From positions 1 through 34,044 of the IMG/VR virus record IMGVR_UViG_3300008114_000086: 34,044 nt of DNA, one strand, 5' to 3'. Positions 605 through 7,845 of this stretch are shown here, one piece after another; position 1 is the first letter of the stretch, and every line of letters begins with the position of its first letter. The position numbers and the translations under genes are program-made. The notes beneath the pieces are model-generated. The model was not told where the DNA came from, did not search any database, and saw only the letters and a program-made list of their open reading frames with translations. This DNA is from a virus.

Positions 605-1060
605 ATGAAACGATTGGGGACTATCAGTCTCTTATTCTTGGTCAACTCCTGCTTTTGTCAAACAATCTCAAAGGCAGGAGATGGCTGGGATACAAAAATT
701 GACAGTGCGATACAGATAATTAAAAAGTACGACTATCCTAAGTACGTTGTCTTTAAAGAAGTTTGTCAGCGAGTTGATTTTTGGAAAAGTTCTTTTTCTT
801 CCACAGGTATAGTTGACGGAGACTATACCATACTAGTAGCGGATGCAGATGTTAAGTTAAACTCAATCAATAACTTAGCCTGTGTCTTAGTTCATGAAAG
901 TCAGCATCTTATGTATGCAATGCAGGATAGTGACTTAAGTGAATCGGAAGAAGAATTTAGATGCTACTTGTACGAACTCTCCTTCGCAAAAAACATTCCA
1001 ACCCCCGAGCCTTGGTTACTGGCAAACATTTATGACAAATTGGAAAAATACAAAAAATGA
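605..1060 (+). CDS. Secreted HExxH putative zinc metallopeptidase
   Basis: This 151-residue protein begins with a Sec-type signal peptide (positive MKR, then a hydrophobic stretch to about residue 18). The Cys at 16 could serve as an atypical lipobox. Residues 97-101 read HESQH, a perfect HExxH zinc-binding motif within a helix (LVHESQHLMY), and an acidic cluster at 113-117 (ESEEE) could provide the third zinc ligand of a gluzincin-type peptidase. The start ATG follows the previous stop immediately and the end overlaps the next gene by ATGA, so it belongs to the same operon. Position between a cell-wall enzyme and a holin-like gene suggests a periplasmic or envelope role in lysis, but the substrate is unknown. 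I do not recognise the exact family. Confidence 0.6.
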   Translation: MKRLGTISLLFLVNSCFCQTISKAGDGWDTKIDSAIQIIKKYDYPKYVVFKEVCQRVDFWKSSFSSTGIVDGDYTILVADADVKLNSINNLACVLVHESQHLMYAMQDSDLSESEEEFRCYLYELSFAKNIPTPEPWLLANIYDKLEKYKK

Positions 1061-2094
1061 AAAAACTAATTCTGTTTGTAGTCGGGGTGTTGTGCCTTAC
1101 TACTAGCCTCTTTGCACAAAGTGCAAACACTTCTCCTGGAACTGGTCATTGGGTTGTAATTGACTCTGGCTATCAGGTTGCTACCACTACTGTCGGACAG
1201 ACAGTAGCACCTTTACATTTCTATAACACATCTACATCTGAAAAGATTACAGGTATGCAGTACAGAGTATTCTATGACAACACTGCGTTTACAGGTGTGG
1301 TTCCTTCCTTAAAGATTTCTACTTCAGACCAGTATCTTCAGTACGTAGACAGTAACGCACAAGGATTCTTAACTGTAACTCTAGCTTACACAGGTTCTAG
1401 TGCTAGCTTTAACTATTCTAATGGTGCTACTTTTGACCTTACGTTTACTCACGCAGCTAGTGCAGTTTGGAACAACTTAGATTCTATTAAGACTTTGAAA
1501 GTTGCAGGTGTTAAATCATTTGCAAACAAAGCTGCCACTAACTGGGGTAACGATACTACATTGGTAGTTTACTCTTATGGTGGTCGTTTCAATCAAAAGG
1601 TCTTAAGATTTGCTGCTAAGTTTAAAAACGTAACAGGTTCTGATGCTAAGAACTTGTGGGTTTCTTTAGAAAAGAAAGCTCCTTCAGGATCTTGGACTCA
1701 AGTAGAAGCCAAAGCAACTAACTCATTAGGTCATGTTGTGTTTCGTAAATTCTTAGACACTACTTACTGGGATGTACGTATGGTAGTTAAAGGAGACACA
1801 ATGACTCCAGGTAACGTATTCTCTACTGCAGATGCACAGAAGATTAACCAATCTATCTTAGCTCAATACACTCCTACAGGATTTGACTATTACACAATGG
1901 ATGTAAACAACACCAACGGAGATATTACTATTGCTGACGTATACTCAGTATACGGAAGATTGGCAGGTAGATTCTCGAGCTGGCCTAATTCTAAAAAGGA
2001 TGTAATGTTCTTCACAGTTGCTCAGTATAATTCTATTAACGGCTCTTCCACCAACCTTACCTCTACCTACTCTACCATTAATAACTTTGACTAA
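1057..2094 (+). CDS. Secreted cohesin-like/dockerin-like protein (upstream part of a broken gene)
   Basis: Signal peptide at residues 1-20 ending LFA|QS. Residues about 30-175 resemble a cohesin-type beta-sandwich (conserved YDNTAF and GATFDLTF segments). Residues about 180-250 look like an Ig-like domain. Residues 253-310 form a dockerin-like pair: a first half around STADAQKINQSIL, then the calcium-loop motif DVNNTNGDITIAD at 282-294. A tail of FFTVAQYNSI type follows. The frame stops at TAA 2092-2094, but the same frame continues immediately as sensible protein (KGDANSTGFK, then a second cohesin-like domain). The product is therefore probably the front part of a longer ancestral protein. 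It is coupled to the gene before by an ATGA overlap. Secretion to the cell surface is inferred; domain calls are by eye. Confidence 0.65.
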   Translation: MKKLILFVVGVLCLTTSLFAQSANTSPGTGHWVVIDSGYQVATTTVGQTVAPLHFYNTSTSEKITGMQYRVFYDNTAFTGVVPSLKISTSDQYLQYVDSNAQGFLTVTLAYTGSSASFNYSNGATFDLTFTHAASAVWNNLDSIKTLKVAGVKSFANKAATNWGNDTTLVVYSYGGRFNQKVLRFAAKFKNVTGSDAKNLWVSLEKKAPSGSWTQVEAKATNSLGHVVFRKFLDTTYWDVRMVVKGDTMTPGNVFSTADAQKINQSILAQYTPTGFDYYTMDVNNTNGDITIADVYSVYGRLAGRFSSWPNSKKDVMFFTVAQYNSINGSSTNLTSTYSTINNFD

Positions 2095-2809
2095 AAAGGA
2101 GACGCAAACTCTACTGGATTTAAGATGGCTCGTTTGACTCCTATCAAAATTGTCAACCAAGCTAACGCCAAAAAGTACATCATTGACAAAACAGTAAGTT
2201 ACGATGACCCTACTTTAGACGTAGTAGAAATCAACATGCCTAAAGTAACCGTAGATGCAGGTAACTTAGTAAACGTGCCTGTAAAAGTTTTAACTAACGG
2301 CAAGTCATTGGGTGCTCTTCAGTTAGACCTTAAGTATGATACAGCTTACTTAGAGTTTAAGAACGTAGAAGTAACTGATAAGATGATGAAGTGGACTTCT
2401 TATACCAACCCTTCTAACGGGTTATTGTCTTGGGGCGGTGCAGATTTAACCAACTCTAACTTGCTTGTAGATGGAGAACTTGCTTTTACACTACAGTTTG
2501 TTGCTAAGAAACCTCAAGACTCTTGGGCTACCGCAGCAATCTGGACATCAGAAAAGTACGTAGGAGACGACAAAGCAAAAGATATGGTCATCACTCCTGC
2601 TATGGGTATTATAGAAGTAAGACGTAAAGGTGTAGTTGCTATGAAAGACATCTCGTCTTTGTTAGTATATACAAACCATCTTAGACACAAAGATGCCCAA
2701 AGGTTCCTACACCTATACTCCTAGCTTAGAAAGACTATCTAACGGCACATACATCTTAACTTTGAAAACCAACAAAGACATATTAGATTCGAAACTATTA
2801 ATTATATAA
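2095..2809 (+). pseudogene. Downstream part of the broken gene: cohesin-like domain plus type IX-like sorting tail
   Basis: This stretch continues the previous gene in the same frame after one TAA codon. An ATG at 2125 could restart translation, but it would lack a signal peptide. Bases about 2224-2620 encode a clear cohesin-like domain (VTVDAGNLVNVPVKV, LDLKYDTAYLEF, LAFTLQF). Around 2665-2674 the coding sense moves to the +1 frame; in the original frame it ends at TAG 2722. The shifted frame runs to TAA 2807-2809 and encodes YTPSLERLSNGTYILTLKTN then SKLLII. That pattern (LxxGTYIxxL and a terminal K-L-hydrophobic end) resembles C-terminal sorting domains of the type IX secretion system. Two lesions suggest a decaying gene, a recent mutation or sequence errors; programmed recoding is less likely. 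Confidence 0.65.
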
Positions 2810-2813
2810 AACT

Positions 2814-3179
2814 ATGAGCCTTAAAGACAAACTTGGTTTTGGCCAAGCAGAACCCGTAGCAGTAGCAGATAACAATCGTTTTTACTACATGCTACAACAG
2901 ATGCAAGCTAACCGTTGGAAGATTACTGCCATTGTGTTAGGTTTGTTTACTTTAATTATTGTAGGCATTAACTCTGCCGTGTTCTTTGGAGCATCTATCG
3001 GAGAAGATTGGAAAGAACTATTACTTATTCTTTTAGGTGCCTTTGTAGGTAACTTGAATAAGGTAGTAGACTACTGGTTTAACTCTGAAGACCGTGACAA
3101 AATGTTGATAGCAAAGGTGGATGAGGAAGATGATACCCCAGAAATTTTAGCTGCTAAGTACAGTAAAAAAGAAGATTAA
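2814..3179 (+). CDS. Holin-like two-helix membrane protein
   Basis: The protein has 121 residues with two predicted membrane helices, at about 36-58 (ITAIVLGLFTLIIVGINSAV) and about 68-85 (LLLILLGAFVGNLNKVV). A soluble N-terminus precedes them and a strongly charged acidic/Lys tail follows. The segment GAFVGNLNKVVDYWFNSEDRD is typical of small holin-type proteins of Bacteroidota phages as I know them. Size, two-helix layout, charged end and position next to cell-wall enzymes all fit a holin that permits lysis through the inner membrane. It starts four bases after the end of the broken cohesin gene. It could instead be an antiholin or another small membrane protein. Confidence 0.65.
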   Translation: MSLKDKLGFGQAEPVAVADNNRFYYMLQQMQANRWKITAIVLGLFTLIIVGINSAVFFGASIGEDWKELLLILLGAFVGNLNKVVDYWFNSEDRDKMLIAKVDEEDDTPEILAAKYSKKED

Positions 3180-3194
3180 TAAGTAAATTTACAC

Positions 3195-3782
3195 GTGGCT
3201 TATCTTTACCGACATATTAGACTTGATAAAAATATTCCTTTTTATATAGGGATAGGTGTTGATGATGATGGAGGAAACTTCAGAAGATCCAAGGCAAAAG
3301 AACATCGTAATGAATACTGGCATAATATTGTAGCCAAAACAAGTTACAGAGTAGATATCATTATGAATGACTTGAGTTGGGAAGAAGCTTGTGCCAAAGA
3401 AAAGGAGTTTATTAAGTTATATGGAAGAAAAGATAAGTCTCAGGGTTTTTTAGCAAATCAAACTGATGGAGGTGATGGAGGTACTGGTGTAATTGTAAAA
3501 CCAGAAACACGAGAGAAGATACGGCAATTCCAAATTAGTTTAGATAAGAAAGGAAAACCAGGTAGGGTATGGACGCAAGAATCAAAAGATAAACTTGCAA
3601 ATACAATACGAGGAGTTAAGCATAGTCCTGAAGCTATCGAGAAGATGCGTAAGCCTAGGGAAAACACAGAAAATTATAAATATCCCAAAGCAAAAATACC
3701 ATGTCAAGTTTGTGGTTTTATGGCGCAACCTGCTGCAATTTCAAGATGGCACAATAAAAACTGTAAAAAAATTAATCCATAA
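3195..3782 (+). CDS. GIY-YIG homing endonuclease with NUMOD3 repeats and a zinc-finger tail
   Basis: The only in-frame start is GTG at 3195, since a stop lies just upstream. Residues 4-19 hold the two halves of the GIY-YIG core in the form YLY...FYIG, followed by basic residues (FRRSK) and a helix carrying the conserved Glu (EEACAKEKEFIKLYG). Residues about 100-150 contain repeated DNA-binding NUMOD3-type motifs (KPETREKIRQ, SKDKLANTIRGVKHSPEAIEKM). The C-terminus has C-x2-C-x12-H-x3-C, a probable zinc finger. Such enzymes nick or cleave specific DNA sites and spread as selfish free-standing genes between phage genes. Here it separates the holin-like gene from the small membrane protein gene. 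Its gene is more A-rich than its neighbours, consistent with independent acquisition. Confidence 0.9.
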   Translation: MAYLYRHIRLDKNIPFYIGIGVDDDGGNFRRSKAKEHRNEYWHNIVAKTSYRVDIIMNDLSWEEACAKEKEFIKLYGRKDKSQGFLANQTDGGDGGTGVIVKPETREKIRQFQISLDKKGKPGRVWTQESKDKLANTIRGVKHSPEAIEKMRKPRENTENYKYPKAKIPCQVCGFMAQPAAISRWHNKNCKKINP

Positions 3783-3786
3783 TATT

Positions 3787-4107
3787 ATGTCAGAAGAACA
3801 AGAAGAAGGCGGAATGTCTGGAGTTAAAAAGGCAATCATCGGAGCCATCACTACCGCAGTAACTGCAGGTGGTGCTTGGTTTGCTACTACTTTAGGTGGT
3901 GGAGATGAGCCTGCAGCTTCAGCAGCTACAGCTGCACCCGCACCCGTAATCAACATTACTAACAGTAATGAGAATCAGCAGAAGCAACAAAATAATGGCG
4001 GTGGCAACACTGTAATTATTAAAGAGAAAGCAGTACCAGCAGCAGCTCCTGCTCCAGCTCCAGCTCCTGCCGCTAAACCCCAAGCAGATGAAGAAGATCC
4101 TTGGTAG
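3787..4107 (+). CDS. Small Ala/Pro-rich membrane-anchored protein
   Basis: I chose ATG 3787, giving 106 residues, because the longer frame upstream lies inside the endonuclease gene and is not protein-like. After an acidic start there is one hydrophobic segment (about residues 14-32, AIIGAITTAVTAGGAWFAT). Then come a Gly/Asn/Gln-rich linker (NQQKQQNNGGG) and an Ala-Pro repeat (AAPAPAPAPAA) with an acidic end, EEDPW. A single anchor followed by an extended, Pro-rich, periplasm-spanning region is compatible with a spanin-like or other lysis accessory role, but no family is recognised. It overlaps the CsgG-family gene by 20 bases, indicating translational coupling. The sequence is low-complexity, so homology calls would be weak. 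Confidence 0.65.
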   Translation: MSEEQEEGGMSGVKKAIIGAITTAVTAGGAWFATTLGGGDEPAASAATAAPAPVINITNSNENQQKQQNNGGGNTVIIKEKAVPAAAPAPAPAPAAKPQADEEDPW

Positions 4108-4777
4108 TTTACTAATTGTAATCCTTGTCTATGGTTGTGGTTCTATGAAGACCACAACCGAGGATGAGGTTATTGAGAAAGCAGACATCTCTACTGTCTC
4201 TAACTACACGGACTCTATCAAGAGAACCGTGCAAGTTATCAGTATGGACATGACCAAAGTATTGGCTATGTACCCAGACTTACAAGAGAAGAACGTAGGT
4301 TTAGGTTTTGCAGAATCCGTATTAGATTATTTAGATGAGACAAATCGTTTTGTATTTACTGAAGAGAAGGGAGAAATCAAGGAAAGGATGGTAACCCAGT
4401 TTAAGGCTTCTAAAAAAGGAGTCTTTGAAGAACCCATTGATGGGAAAGGAAAGATTAAAGCAGCACAATACTTTGTGTATGTGACTGTTGCTGACTTTGC
4501 CGTAGATGAGGATGAAACTGTAGAAGGAGCTAAAGCTAAAGTAGTTGTTACTACCTTTATCCGTTTGCAAGTTCGTTTCGTAGATGCAAAAACAGGGCAA
4601 ATCTTTATAGGCTCAGGAGAAGGAGAATCCACTAAGACTGGAGAATCTTTCTTAAAGTCATTAGACGGAATGAAGTTTTCTCAAAGCACAGTAGGTAAGG
4701 CTACACGTAAATCACTAGAAACTGCTACAACTAAAGTGATTGAAAACCTTATCAAGAACGGTGTCTTTAAGAGTTAA
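4088..4777 (+). CDS. CsgG-family outer-membrane lipoprotein
   Basis: The protein has 229 residues. The N-terminus MKKILGSLLIVILVYGCGS is a lipoprotein signal with the lipidated Cys at 17. The body follows the CsgG plan as I know it: a VLDYLDETNRFVF segment (the 'grF' helix/strand), an alpha/beta segment with AAQYFVYVTVADF, then a strand pair RLQVRFVDAKTGQIFIGSGEGES corresponding to the family's hallmark 'R..D..TG.i' motif, and a final Ala/Thr-rich helix. CsgG forms a ring-shaped outer-membrane pore that exports curli subunits in bacteria. A phage copy next to several Sec-signal proteins suggests a phage-directed envelope pore or lipoprotein ring. Whether the full pore-forming barrel hairpins are present cannot be judged by eye. 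ATG at 4088 is inside the preceding gene's end. Confidence 0.75.
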   Translation: MKKILGSLLIVILVYGCGSMKTTTEDEVIEKADISTVSNYTDSIKRTVQVISMDMTKVLAMYPDLQEKNVGLGFAESVLDYLDETNRFVFTEEKGEIKERMVTQFKASKKGVFEEPIDGKGKIKAAQYFVYVTVADFAVDEDETVEGAKAKVVVTTFIRLQVRFVDAKTGQIFIGSGEGESTKTGESFLKSLDGMKFSQSTVGKATRKSLETATTKVIENLIKNGVFKS

Positions 4778-6209
4778 CATATTAATCTTATTGATGTGTA
4801 TAGGACTGAGTGTAAAAGCTCAGTCCTTCACATACTCGTACACAGACCCGTGTACAAAACAATTGAAGTTCATAAGTGCAGATATGAACTCACCCATAGT
4901 AATAAGTTACTACGGACAAGTAAAAAGTTTTAGTTACACAGAACTACAGGATGGTACTTTTGACAACTGGTTAAACTCTACCTACATAAACTTCAAAAAT
5001 GCCAAACCTTGTGAGGGAGTATTCTCAACAACTACAACTACGACCTCTACTACTACGGTAACTTCTCTAGTAAATAGTGTGATGAATCTAAACTCTTTAT
5101 CTAGTTTAGACTTATCTTCGACATCATCAATAGGATCTAGTGCTTCAGTAGGAAGTACAACATCCTCAGGAACAACAGGAACGACAGGTAAAAATGGAAG
5201 CTCGAATAATAAATCCCGTAGTAATGGAAGTAATAATACTACTGGGTCTTCTAGCAATAACTCTAGTCAAGGTGGCGAATCATCTGGACAAGGGTCCAAT
5301 ACGTCGTCGGAAGGACAAATAGACAACAATGGAAGCACTAATGGAAATAGTGGAAGCAGCGGTTCTTCTAACTCTGGGAGTAGTTCTGGGAGTGGTTCTA
5401 ATTCTTCTAATTCTAGTAATAGCAATGGTTCTAGCGGAAGCGGTAGTGGAGGTACAACTGGCAACAATAAATCTGAAGAGAAAACTCCTGAACAAGTCGA
5501 AGAACAAAAGTCCGAAACTCAACAAGCAGGAGGAAGCGCTTCAGCAAAGTCCGCAGCAAAAGGTAAAGTAGAAACACAGAAACCTGCAATCCTAGTTACA
5601 GGAGATATCGTAGGTGTTCAAACAATCAAAGACCAAGCACAAGATGCACGTGGTACAATGTCTCTAACTAAAGTTAAGGGAGATGGTACAGCATCAATTG
5701 GATTCTCAGCCGACTACATGCTTAACGCAAAGATTGGAAACTTCAATGCAATGCGTTCTTGGATGGGCGCAAACAACAAAGGACACAAGCATATCAACGT
5801 TCTTTCCGCAGGAGTTAACTTTATGCCTAAGTCTTACAACGGCTCAATGCTTTTTGTAAGGGTAAACTCTCTAAAGAATTTTACAGCACTATACGGAGCA
5901 GCAGGTTCTTATGGACAACTGTTTGAGGAGGAAGTTATCTCTACTTTATTGATTGGAGGTTTTATGTACAAAGGAAAGTTGAGTAAACAAATAGACGCTA
6001 CAATTATTGCTGCGGCTGTTTACGCTCCCTACACAAAGTATTATACGGAGAGTTTGTTTGAGTCTCAGCCAATCATAGTTCCCTTTCTAAACATAAACTA
6101 CTCTATAACTAAGACTTTTAAGTTTGGTTTAACTGGAGGAGGAACCTACATAGCAAACCAAGACATTGTTAACTATCAAATCTTAATGGGAGGTAAGTTA
6201 AAGATATGA
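4761..6209 (+). CDS. Secreted Ser/Gly-rich protein with beta-rich C-terminal domain
   Basis: I favour GTG 4761, which gives a clean signal peptide (SLRVNILILLMCIGLSVKA|Q); TTG 4740 is an alternative and both overlap the end of the CsgG-family gene. Numbering from TTG 4740, residues 28-92 are a small domain with two Cys (PC at 37-38 and 90-91). Residues about 96-245 are a very low-complexity Ser/Thr/Gly/Asn linker, and 246-280 are charged. Residues 281-489 form a beta-rich domain with alternating aromatic/hydrophobic strands, ending MGGKLKI, as in outer-membrane barrels or beta-sandwiches. The pairing with CsgG suggests export to, or residence in, the outer membrane. Function is unknown; a partner or substrate of the CsgG-like pore is an inference. 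It overlaps the next gene by ATGA. Confidence 0.65.
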   Translation: MSLRVNILILLMCIGLSVKAQSFTYSYTDPCTKQLKFISADMNSPIVISYYGQVKSFSYTELQDGTFDNWLNSTYINFKNAKPCEGVFSTTTTTTSTTTVTSLVNSVMNLNSLSSLDLSSTSSIGSSASVGSTTSSGTTGTTGKNGSSNNKSRSNGSNNTTGSSSNNSSQGGESSGQGSNTSSEGQIDNNGSTNGNSGSSGSSNSGSSSGSGSNSSNSSNSNGSSGSGSGGTTGNNKSEEKTPEQVEEQKSETQQAGGSASAKSAAKGKVETQKPAILVTGDIVGVQTIKDQAQDARGTMSLTKVKGDGTASIGFSADYMLNAKIGNFNAMRSWMGANNKGHKHINVLSAGVNFMPKSYNGSMLFVRVNSLKNFTALYGAAGSYGQLFEEEVISTLLIGGFMYKGKLSKQIDATIIAAAVYAPYTKYYTESLFESQPIIVPFLNINYSITKTFKFGLTGGGTYIANQDIVNYQILMGGKLKI

Positions 6210-7402
6210 GGTGGCTTATTGTTTTATTCTTATTCTCAGGCTCTCTAGAAGCACAGTTTACCTATTCTGGATACTTGTATAACGCAAATGGTTCTGGTGC
6301 CTCTAACGTAGCTGTAAAACTTTTTAAAAGTACAGCAGGGGCTACTACAAAGACAGGAACGCTAACTAAGATAACATCTGGTATTCCTTCTGATAGAGGA
6401 AGAGGAGGTTCTGTTTTACACTCTACCCTTAACACAGATGAGAAATCAGTTGCTGTAACTATTCCCTTTACGGTAAGTTATGCGGGTACAAATTATACAA
6501 GTGGTCACGTTAATGCTAACTCTTGGTTTACTTTTGGTACAAGTTCAAGTTCTGGTTATAACGGAAGTGCTACCAGTCCTAACCAACCCACCATCCATAT
6601 CGGCTCGGTAGATAATGGTTCTACAGATAATAACGTTTCTTATGTCTCGACTGAAGCTTACACAGATGGAACTTACGGAGATGTGTTTAGGGTTAGGTAC
6701 GAAGGTAACTGCAAATACAATCAAACAGGAATCAACTATGTTTGGGATTTGTACTTTATCAAGAATCAAACAGCAAAGCAGATAGTAGTTTGGAGAACAT
6801 TTACTGCTGATGGTTCAAACCAAGAGGTAATGGGTATATCCACAGGTAGTGCGTGGATGGCAAATTCATTCGTTACCTCAGGTACTTTTTCTAGCACTAG
6901 TTGGGAGATAACATCAACGTCAACCACAACAACCTCTTCTAGTTCTTTAGACGCTACAGCATACACAAACTCATCAGGCTATTATTCTTTCTCAAGAACT
7001 ACAGTTGCAGGGAATCAATTTACGATTCAAGTAGATGCGCCAACTAGAGTGCAAGCTTATACCACTACAGACATACAGAATATTTCTAACATAGTTTTAG
7101 GAAAGACTGCAATAAATGGACTTTCTTATCATATGTTTGATGTTAATGATGACGAGAGAATAAACATAGCAGACAAGTACTACATAGCTGCTAGGAAAGC
7201 AGGAAGATTTTCTAAGTGGAGAATCGCACCTGATGTAAGAATCTTTACCCTAGCTCAGTACAATGCCATAGTAGCTTCTAAAGTAAACGTACGTACAACT
7301 TACCCTGGAGTTAGTACGCATACAACCTCAACTTTAACTAGTGGAGGAACTCTGAATCTTTACCTTATAGCTCCAGGATACTCTGGGGCAGTAGCTTATT
7401 AA
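6206..7402 (+). CDS. Secreted protein with virion-surface-type beta domain and dockerin-like C-terminus
   Basis: Signal peptide MRWLIVLFLFSGSLEA|Q. Residues about 18-45 (FTYSGYLYNANGSGASNVAVKLF) and 247-278 (AYTNSSGYYSF...FTIQVDAP) together resemble a split carboxypeptidase-regulatory/Ig-like domain. Between them residues 80-235 form a beta domain starting IPFTVSYAGTNYTSGHVNANSWFTFG, a pattern I have seen in phage and marine surface proteins. Residues 285-340 are dockerin-like, with the calcium-loop-type segment DVNDDERINIAD at 312-323 and then RKAGRFSKW. The segment IFTLAQYNAI matches the tail of the dockerin in the gene at 1057. No cohesin or sorting tail follows; the protein ends GYSGAVAY. 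Function is unknown; calcium-dependent binding to a cohesin-like partner is an inference. Confidence 0.65.
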   Translation: MRWLIVLFLFSGSLEAQFTYSGYLYNANGSGASNVAVKLFKSTAGATTKTGTLTKITSGIPSDRGRGGSVLHSTLNTDEKSVAVTIPFTVSYAGTNYTSGHVNANSWFTFGTSSSSGYNGSATSPNQPTIHIGSVDNGSTDNNVSYVSTEAYTDGTYGDVFRVRYEGNCKYNQTGINYVWDLYFIKNQTAKQIVVWRTFTADGSNQEVMGISTGSAWMANSFVTSGTFSSTSWEITSTSTTTTSSSSLDATAYTNSSGYYSFSRTTVAGNQFTIQVDAPTRVQAYTTTDIQNISNIVLGKTAINGLSYHMFDVNDDERINIADKYYIAARKAGRFSKWRIAPDVRIFTLAQYNAIVASKVNVRTTYPGVSTHTTSTLTSGGTLNLYLIAPGYSGAVAY

Positions 7403-7404
7403 CC

Positions 7405-7845
7405 ATGAAAAAACTAATCATAATCCTCACAACCGCCCTCACGGCATCACTAGGTGCTCAATGCTTTACGATTGACACAGTAAGAAATCACACTCACTTG
7501 CAAACTATTGCAGGTAGACCTGTTGACTTTGGAGTAGTTCCTACTGCAGAACAACTAATCTCTAACAAGTATTCTATCTGCGACAATGGTATTAAAGTAG
7601 AGTTAGCTTTAAACACAATTGCTGTTCCTCAGAGAATTATAAACATCGTAGGAATACAACTGCTAAAGAGAGATTACGTAGTCAATATGTCTATCACAGC
7701 TAATAACATTACACATTATTCTCGCAACGTAAAGACTGTTTATGTAAACGCTATGTTCCTTACCGTAGAGCAGATTCCTGAGAACAAAAAGGCATACTCT
7801 AAGGCAGTTGAGAAGTGCTTAATTGATTTAGTTAAGCAGTTGTAG
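7405..7845 (+). CDS. Small secreted protein of the CsgG-linked cluster
   Basis: The protein has 146 residues with a clear signal peptide (MKKLIIILTTALTASLGA|Q). The mature part has three Cys, a predicted beta core (VVNMSITANNI, TVYVNAMFLTVEQIP) and a terminal helix (NKKAYSKAVEKCLIDLVKQL). The strand-then-helix ending is loosely like the end of the CsgG-family protein upstream, but I do not recognise the family and cannot call it CsgE or CsgF. It is the last gene of the secreted-protein run, starting two bases after the previous stop, and is followed directly by a hairpin that looks like a terminator. It is probably co-expressed with the CsgG-family gene and the dockerin protein. Confidence 0.6.
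   Translation: MKKLIIILTTALTASLGAQCFTIDTVRNHTHLQTIAGRPVDFGVVPTAEQLISNKYSICDNGIKVELALNTIAVPQRIINIVGIQLLKRDYVVNMSITANNITHYSRNVKTVYVNAMFLTVEQIPENKKAYSKAVEKCLIDLVKQL

Follow-up and report, generated by a model that had tools for sequence, protein, structure and literature searches.

The stretch analysed here (the window, 34,044 nt of a viral record) carries near its start, on the plus strand, a block of genes for mostly exported proteins, which we refer to as the cassette. By the criteria applied the window belongs to the crAss-like phages (Crassvirales), as it encodes a muzzle protein (PF25731, 26199-31787) together with a terminase (phrog_6681), a portal (phrog_6547) and a capsid protein (phrog_11589). 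An endolysin-like gene (2-604; phrog_3000, and phrog_33083 for endolysin) is situated upstream of the cassette, which opens with g1 (605-1060), an exported HExxH (zincin-like) protein with a signal sequence, whose motif and position are conserved in relatives. It is followed by the main gene of this study (1057-2809); by g3 (2814-3179), a small two-helix membrane protein according to its sequence and conservation, which we take by recognition to be holin-like; by the CsgG-like lipoprotein g6 (4088-4777); by g7 (4740-6209), an exported protein with a Ser/Gly/Asn-rich middle and a beta-rich end; by g8 (6206-7402), an exported protein with an exchangeable head and a constant dockerin-like C-terminal module; and by the exported protein g9 (7405-7845). 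Both g7 and g9 were delimited from the list of open reading frames and their conserved position, and no family match was found for g7. In g1 the conserved HExxH is followed by an acidic CY-YEL motif, so that the protein is a candidate exported protease of zincin-like type with no Pfam match. A candidate homing endonuclease of GIY-YIG/NUMOD3-like type (3195-3782; NUMOD3 below cut-off) is present at that spot in some relatives only.

Across 1057-2809 one continuous protein design can be read, far above chance, and it is a damaged copy of a phage protein of about 630 aa. The intact protein of this family consists of a signal peptide, a cohesin, an Ig-like domain, a dockerin-like module, a second cohesin and a type A sorting tail of the type IX secretion system (T9SS). 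In the window, the Sec-type signal peptide MKKLILFVVGVLCLTTSLFAQ (1057-1119) was read directly from the sequence and its position is conserved in all relatives, being clear by inspection in all aligned members. It precedes the first cohesin-like domain (1183-1542; PF00963 19.6 bits, cut-off 24.1), an Ig/transthyretin-like beta domain (1663-1800; weak Pfam matches to PITM1-3 / Transthyretin, all below cut-off), a dockerin-like module of two helices and one D-x-N...D loop (1822-2091), homologous to the C-terminal module of g8, and the second cohesin domain (2224-2586; PF00963 37.5 bits against the same cut-off). The 5' part of the broken gene, 345 aa ending at TAA (1057-2094 in the list of open reading frames), holds everything up to the dockerin-like module and is 98-100% identical to the intact relatives L001 and L002. 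The second open reading frame of the window, 2125-2724, possesses neither signal peptide nor sorting tail, and the remainder (2669-2809) is an out-of-frame remnant of the sorting domain with the same sequence as the end of L001's unbroken protein.

An earlier note on this DNA had attributed the two interruptions to a base change giving TAA at 2092-2094 and to a +1 shift near 2665-2674. Both interruptions, the stop and the lost frame near 2668, do exist in this record, but their nature is different. Pairwise alignment with L001 and L002 (95-99% identity to the window over matched DNA stretches) places a deletion of 42 nt between 2093 and 2094, in frame, whose junction (2092-2095) reads TAA, and another of 95 nt between 2668 and 2669, which removed the start of the sorting domain and shifted the frame; a point mutation plus a one-base slip is thereby ruled out. 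As the second cohesin and the tail are lost from the reading frame, the window's copy is unable to act as a surface scaffold. Thirty-three other genes of the window were compared with the relative G007, and where a counterpart exists it aligns over the whole length or nearly so (two small genes have no or only a partial counterpart), which confines the damage to this gene.

The window's copy is thus either an allele that was disabled recently or a product of faulty assembly. That the two gaps were introduced by the assembly and the phage in nature has an undamaged gene seems to us close to an even matter, leaning slightly against. Neither junction sequence is present in any other viral contig searched, nearly all other compared genes are full length, and the close relatives L001, L002 and L177 are intact at 98-99% identity to the window, all of which would fit a faulty assembly; however, no microhomology was found at either junction in the alignments with L001 and L002, while assemblers usually require it, and two lesions within one gene resemble the decay that follows a first hit.

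Relatives of the main gene are encoded in 116 viral stretches according to a single-sequence query of viral contigs with the first half of the gene, and in 190 according to an alignment query of viral contigs. A single open frame of 612-633 aa was found in 78 of the first 80 loci, the remaining two running off the contig end, and a full-length frame in 77 of 89 distinct fetched copies, where the shorter ones, the window excepted, begin or stop at a contig edge. The earlier reading of one long design across 1057-2809 is borne out by these relatives; clean stops common to all of them, which would have spoken against it, do not occur, and for crAss-like phages this rules out recoding, a programmed stop common to the family and a division into two genes. 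Strong purifying selection acts across the main gene (median dN/dS 0.14): the cohesins are its best conserved part (0.08-0.14, the first cohesin being lowest with 0.08), the tail region has 0.38 and the signal peptide is highest with 0.50. It is a family widespread in phages and apparently undescribed.

The sorting tail was detected in 34 of 34 family members by both PF18962 (Por_Secre_tail, Pfam) and TIGR04183 (NCBIfam), so the T9SS-type tail proposed from the broken copy is confirmed in the intact relatives by two independent curated models, while the broken copy itself gives no match to PF18962. For L001 the scores are 42.0 bits (cut-off 27) and 35.3 bits (cut-off 23), respectively. In the search of 20 phage records, exactly one sorting tail over cut-off was present in each of the 19 intact ones. 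T9SS substrates combine a Sec signal with a type A tail, by which they are exported across the outer membrane and attached to the surface, and the tail is normally cut off by host machinery while the protein is being fixed there. The main protein shares with the bacterial type A substrates both the signal peptide and a C-terminal sorting domain over the two cut-offs (TIGR04183 / PF18962), but those are encoded by bacteria and this one by phages. We infer from the sequences that the T9SS of the host would carry the main protein out.

The two cohesin-type domains were also correctly recognised from the window alone. Profile search puts the second over the PF00963 cut-off in 21 of 21 records searched, Flavobacterium phage immuto included, and the first in 6 records, with weaker scores of 18-23 bits in most others; the L001 protein reaches 46.2 bits against the Cohesin profile (cut-off 24.1). 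A structure prediction, which the earlier note had named as a check, returned a cohesin fold for the second domain of L001, with TM 0.72-0.82 by target length among the best Foldseek matches to solved cohesins. The whole-protein model is poor (mean pLDDT 51) and was relied on solely for the second cohesin, where pLDDT is about 60-83. When the two cohesins were compared with each other by profile as possible duplicates, no significant signal emerged, the alignments being too shallow.

The dockerin assignment has to be worded more carefully, and with this qualification the domain layout read from the window is right for the family. The loop and the module are present, and the module of the main gene is related to the C-terminal module of g8 with an hhalign probability of 99.7 and 35% identity. 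Dockerin_1 (PF00404, cut-off 22.9 bits) is reached in no record, the best score being 20.4 in the neighbour gene g8, hence we call the module dockerin-like. Type I dockerins have two calcium-binding loop-helix repeats; the alignments reveal one loop only, the first repeat being a helix alone, and the loop of the main gene is one residue longer than the canonical dockerin loop.

In g8 itself (module at 7064-7174; PF00404 13.2 bits in the window, below cut-off) the first approximately 40 and the last 150 residues are constant and the middle differs (alignment A3). The middle domain is a C-type lectin (Lectin_C) in 7 of 18 proteins, GEVED in 2 and PA14 in 1, and the others, that of the window included, have no assigned family. 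The g6 proteins of the window and of locus L004 are identical and their g8 heads different, which indicates that heads are swapped between otherwise similar cassettes. A tail fibre (L018:63-2888) that appeared as a g8 relative was rejected, as its likeness was compositional and disappeared in direct comparison.

The conserved order of the cassette is HExxH protein, main gene, small membrane protein, CsgG-like lipoprotein, exported Ser/Gly-rich protein, head-plus-dockerin protein and small exported protein, most of which start with a signal peptide or a lipobox by inspection. The main gene and the CsgG-like gene co-occur in 149 of 149 and 215 of 215 loci with long enough flanks, counts that are not independent since several loci may share one contig. 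With the curli secretion lipoprotein CsgG, g6 shares a lipobox and a weak profile and fold resemblance (PF03783, E 0.018); its profile score of 14.8 bits is under the Pfam cut-off of 20.8, and the model that matches CsgG structures (E 3e-4) is of low confidence (pLDDT 47), a weak hint, so that the pore is putative. The g6 protein is unusually well conserved: crAss-like and other viral relatives are 81-100% identical, and identity to immuto is about 43%.

Among 50,697 phage records searched, matches were found only in the four records of Flavobacterium phage vB_FspM_immuto (MW353175-7, NC_055915), a T4-like phage whose genes 13-15 represent the same cassette at 26-33% identity, split into separate genes. 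Gene 13 encodes a lectin head with a dockerin-like module, gene 14 the cohesin-like/Ig/dockerin-like part, and gene 15 a cohesin with the sorting tail (36.6 and 36.7 bits, both over cut-off), and relatives of g6, g7 and g9 follow. In GenBank these are annotated as 'cohesin domain-containing protein', 'lectin C-type domain-containing protein' or hypothetical, with no function stated. The claim that no phage had been described with this combination therefore has to be divided: we found no account of it in the open literature, and four GenBank records do hold a split, domain-annotated version. The core genes of immuto are flanked by nucleotide-metabolism genes on one side and by a thioredoxin-like gene on the other; they lie far away from the head genes, and no lysis genes are listed alongside.

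In the records searched, the muzzle family was present in 16 of 20 and in 14 of 25. The capsid protein of three records that have no muzzle (G014, G019, G020; 166-176 kb) shares 50-67% identity with the immuto one, and in these records, too, the main gene is fused. The crAss-type cassette thus also occurs in T4-like phages with immuto-type capsid genes (loci L054, L072 and L104 of these three, and L082), implying that it has been swapped between unrelated phage groups, crAss-like and T4-like. Two further records, G012 and G018 (112 and 102 kb), contain the cassette and match neither the crAss muzzle nor the immuto-type capsid; they may be fragments or a third phage group. In the tree, all crAss-like copies fall in one clade (100/100), and the T4-like and unassigned copies lie outside it. 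With immuto as outgroup this suggests that one transfer may have brought the cassette into crAss-like phages, the immuto branch being very long and the root unsure. The only match in a bacterial genome is a contig of a Sphingomonadaceae MAG (L083, RFPL01000028.1), which itself carries the phage cassette and is probably a phage contig binned wrongly; a bacterial origin or a prophage was rejected on this ground.

What may such a cassette be for? Parts that are fused in one lineage and separate in another are a classic sign of interaction, and the cohesin and dockerin-like parts, fused in most phages and separate in immuto, may be regarded as putative interacting partners on this basis. From the fusion and separation, from the module common to the main protein and g8, and from the constant linkage of the exported genes, we propose, at even chances, that the cassette builds a protein scaffold outside the infected Bacteroidota cell via the host T9SS, with cohesin holding the partners and the surface being altered as a result. 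The signal peptide would take the intact main protein across the inner membrane, and the sorting tail would guide it through the type IX system of the host across the outer one, whereupon host machinery would remove the tail and anchor the protein on the cell surface. Displayed there, the cohesin could bind dockerin-bearing partners, chiefly g8 with its exchangeable lectin-type head, for which the lipoprotein g6 might be a putative route to the surface. The gain would be a changed cell surface, either in adhesion, and an adhesion or aggregation role is suggested by the lectin heads, or in blocked adsorption of competing phages. Phage resistance arose in phage-exposed Flavobacterium columnare carrying gld/spr mutations (PMC9233685); this surface system is therefore of consequence to phages, and the blocking of competitors is plausible for the same reason. 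The purpose remains the weakest step of the proposal. Against the scaffold stand the facts that the partner g8 has no sorting tail, that Dockerin_1 scores are below cut-off everywhere, that the main-gene loop exceeds the canonical one by a residue and that the whole-protein model is poor.

The crAss-like cassette also adjoins endolysin-like and holin-like genes, which is compatible with a role in exit, so that it would weaken or open the outer membrane late in infection, when endolysin and holin would be joined by the surface proteins and the CsgG-like lipoprotein. An endolysin-like gene directly upstream, a holin-like gene within the cassette and the HExxH protein beside the main gene are what one would expect then. 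We nevertheless hold this reading to be rather unlikely: such a role is hinted at by the lysis-type neighbours in crAss-like phages and not by the arrangement in immuto, where lysis genes are not listed beside the core genes, the endolysin-like gene was not found in the fetched stretch of three T4-like records and of many fragments, and neither lectin heads nor a surface-anchoring tail are known components of lysis systems.

It seems very unlikely to us that the proteins decorate the virion and aid its adherence, similar to known Ig-like and lectin-like phage decorations. In the window the cassette shares its strand with the packaging and structural genes and closely precedes them, and phage adhesins commonly bear exchangeable lectin heads, but the signal peptides of the main protein, g7, g8 and g9 and the T9SS tail would direct the proteins away from the cytoplasm, where tailed phages assemble, and the immuto cassette is far from the head genes. 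Little credence can be given, too, to a secretion decoy, an abundant phage substrate that would occupy or jam the host T9SS and leave the gliding adhesins used by other phages undisplayed, with cohesin and dockerin being incidental. One T9SS substrate per genome and the phage resistance of F. columnare T9SS and gliding mutants (PMC9233685) would agree with it; a pure tail decoy, however, predicts the opposite of the conservation observed, in which the cohesins (dN/dS 0.08-0.14) are better conserved than the tail (0.38).

Returning to the scaffold, its close known counterparts include the cellulosome scaffoldins, which it resembles in the cohesin fold and in the dockerin-like partners within one gene cluster. 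It differs from them by a predicted Gram-negative export route, by the single calcium-type loop below the Dockerin_1 cut-off and by its lack of enzymes, as a scan of cassette genes detected no enzyme domain, and hence no dockerin-bearing plant-wall enzyme. The ingredients have all been described singly, namely cohesins, dockerins, T9SS tails and surface proteins encoded by phages; a phage cassette that unites them and is common to unrelated phage groups did not turn up in the open literature searched, where we found no relevant account of cohesin, dockerin or T9SS in phages (subscription papers and preprints being outside the scope). We may even suggest, at somewhat less than even chances, that crAss-like and T4-like phages share a cassette that uses the host T9SS, a cohesin-dockerin scaffold and exchangeable adhesin heads to form a surface organelle of viral making, for which no counterpart has been described.

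If this is true, phages of Bacteroidota would give their hosts a new surface decoration by means of a borrowed secretion system that is, to our knowledge, confined to this phylum, and interchangeable parts would be traded between unrelated phages. The sorting tail predicts a T9SS in the hosts of these crAss-like phages; members of Flavobacterium, the genus of the immuto host, possess one, and the isolated pair of immuto and Flavobacterium sp. LMO8 makes the model testable. The purpose of a conserved block of exported crAss-like genes would then be explained, and it would offer a testable case of phage control over the host surface.
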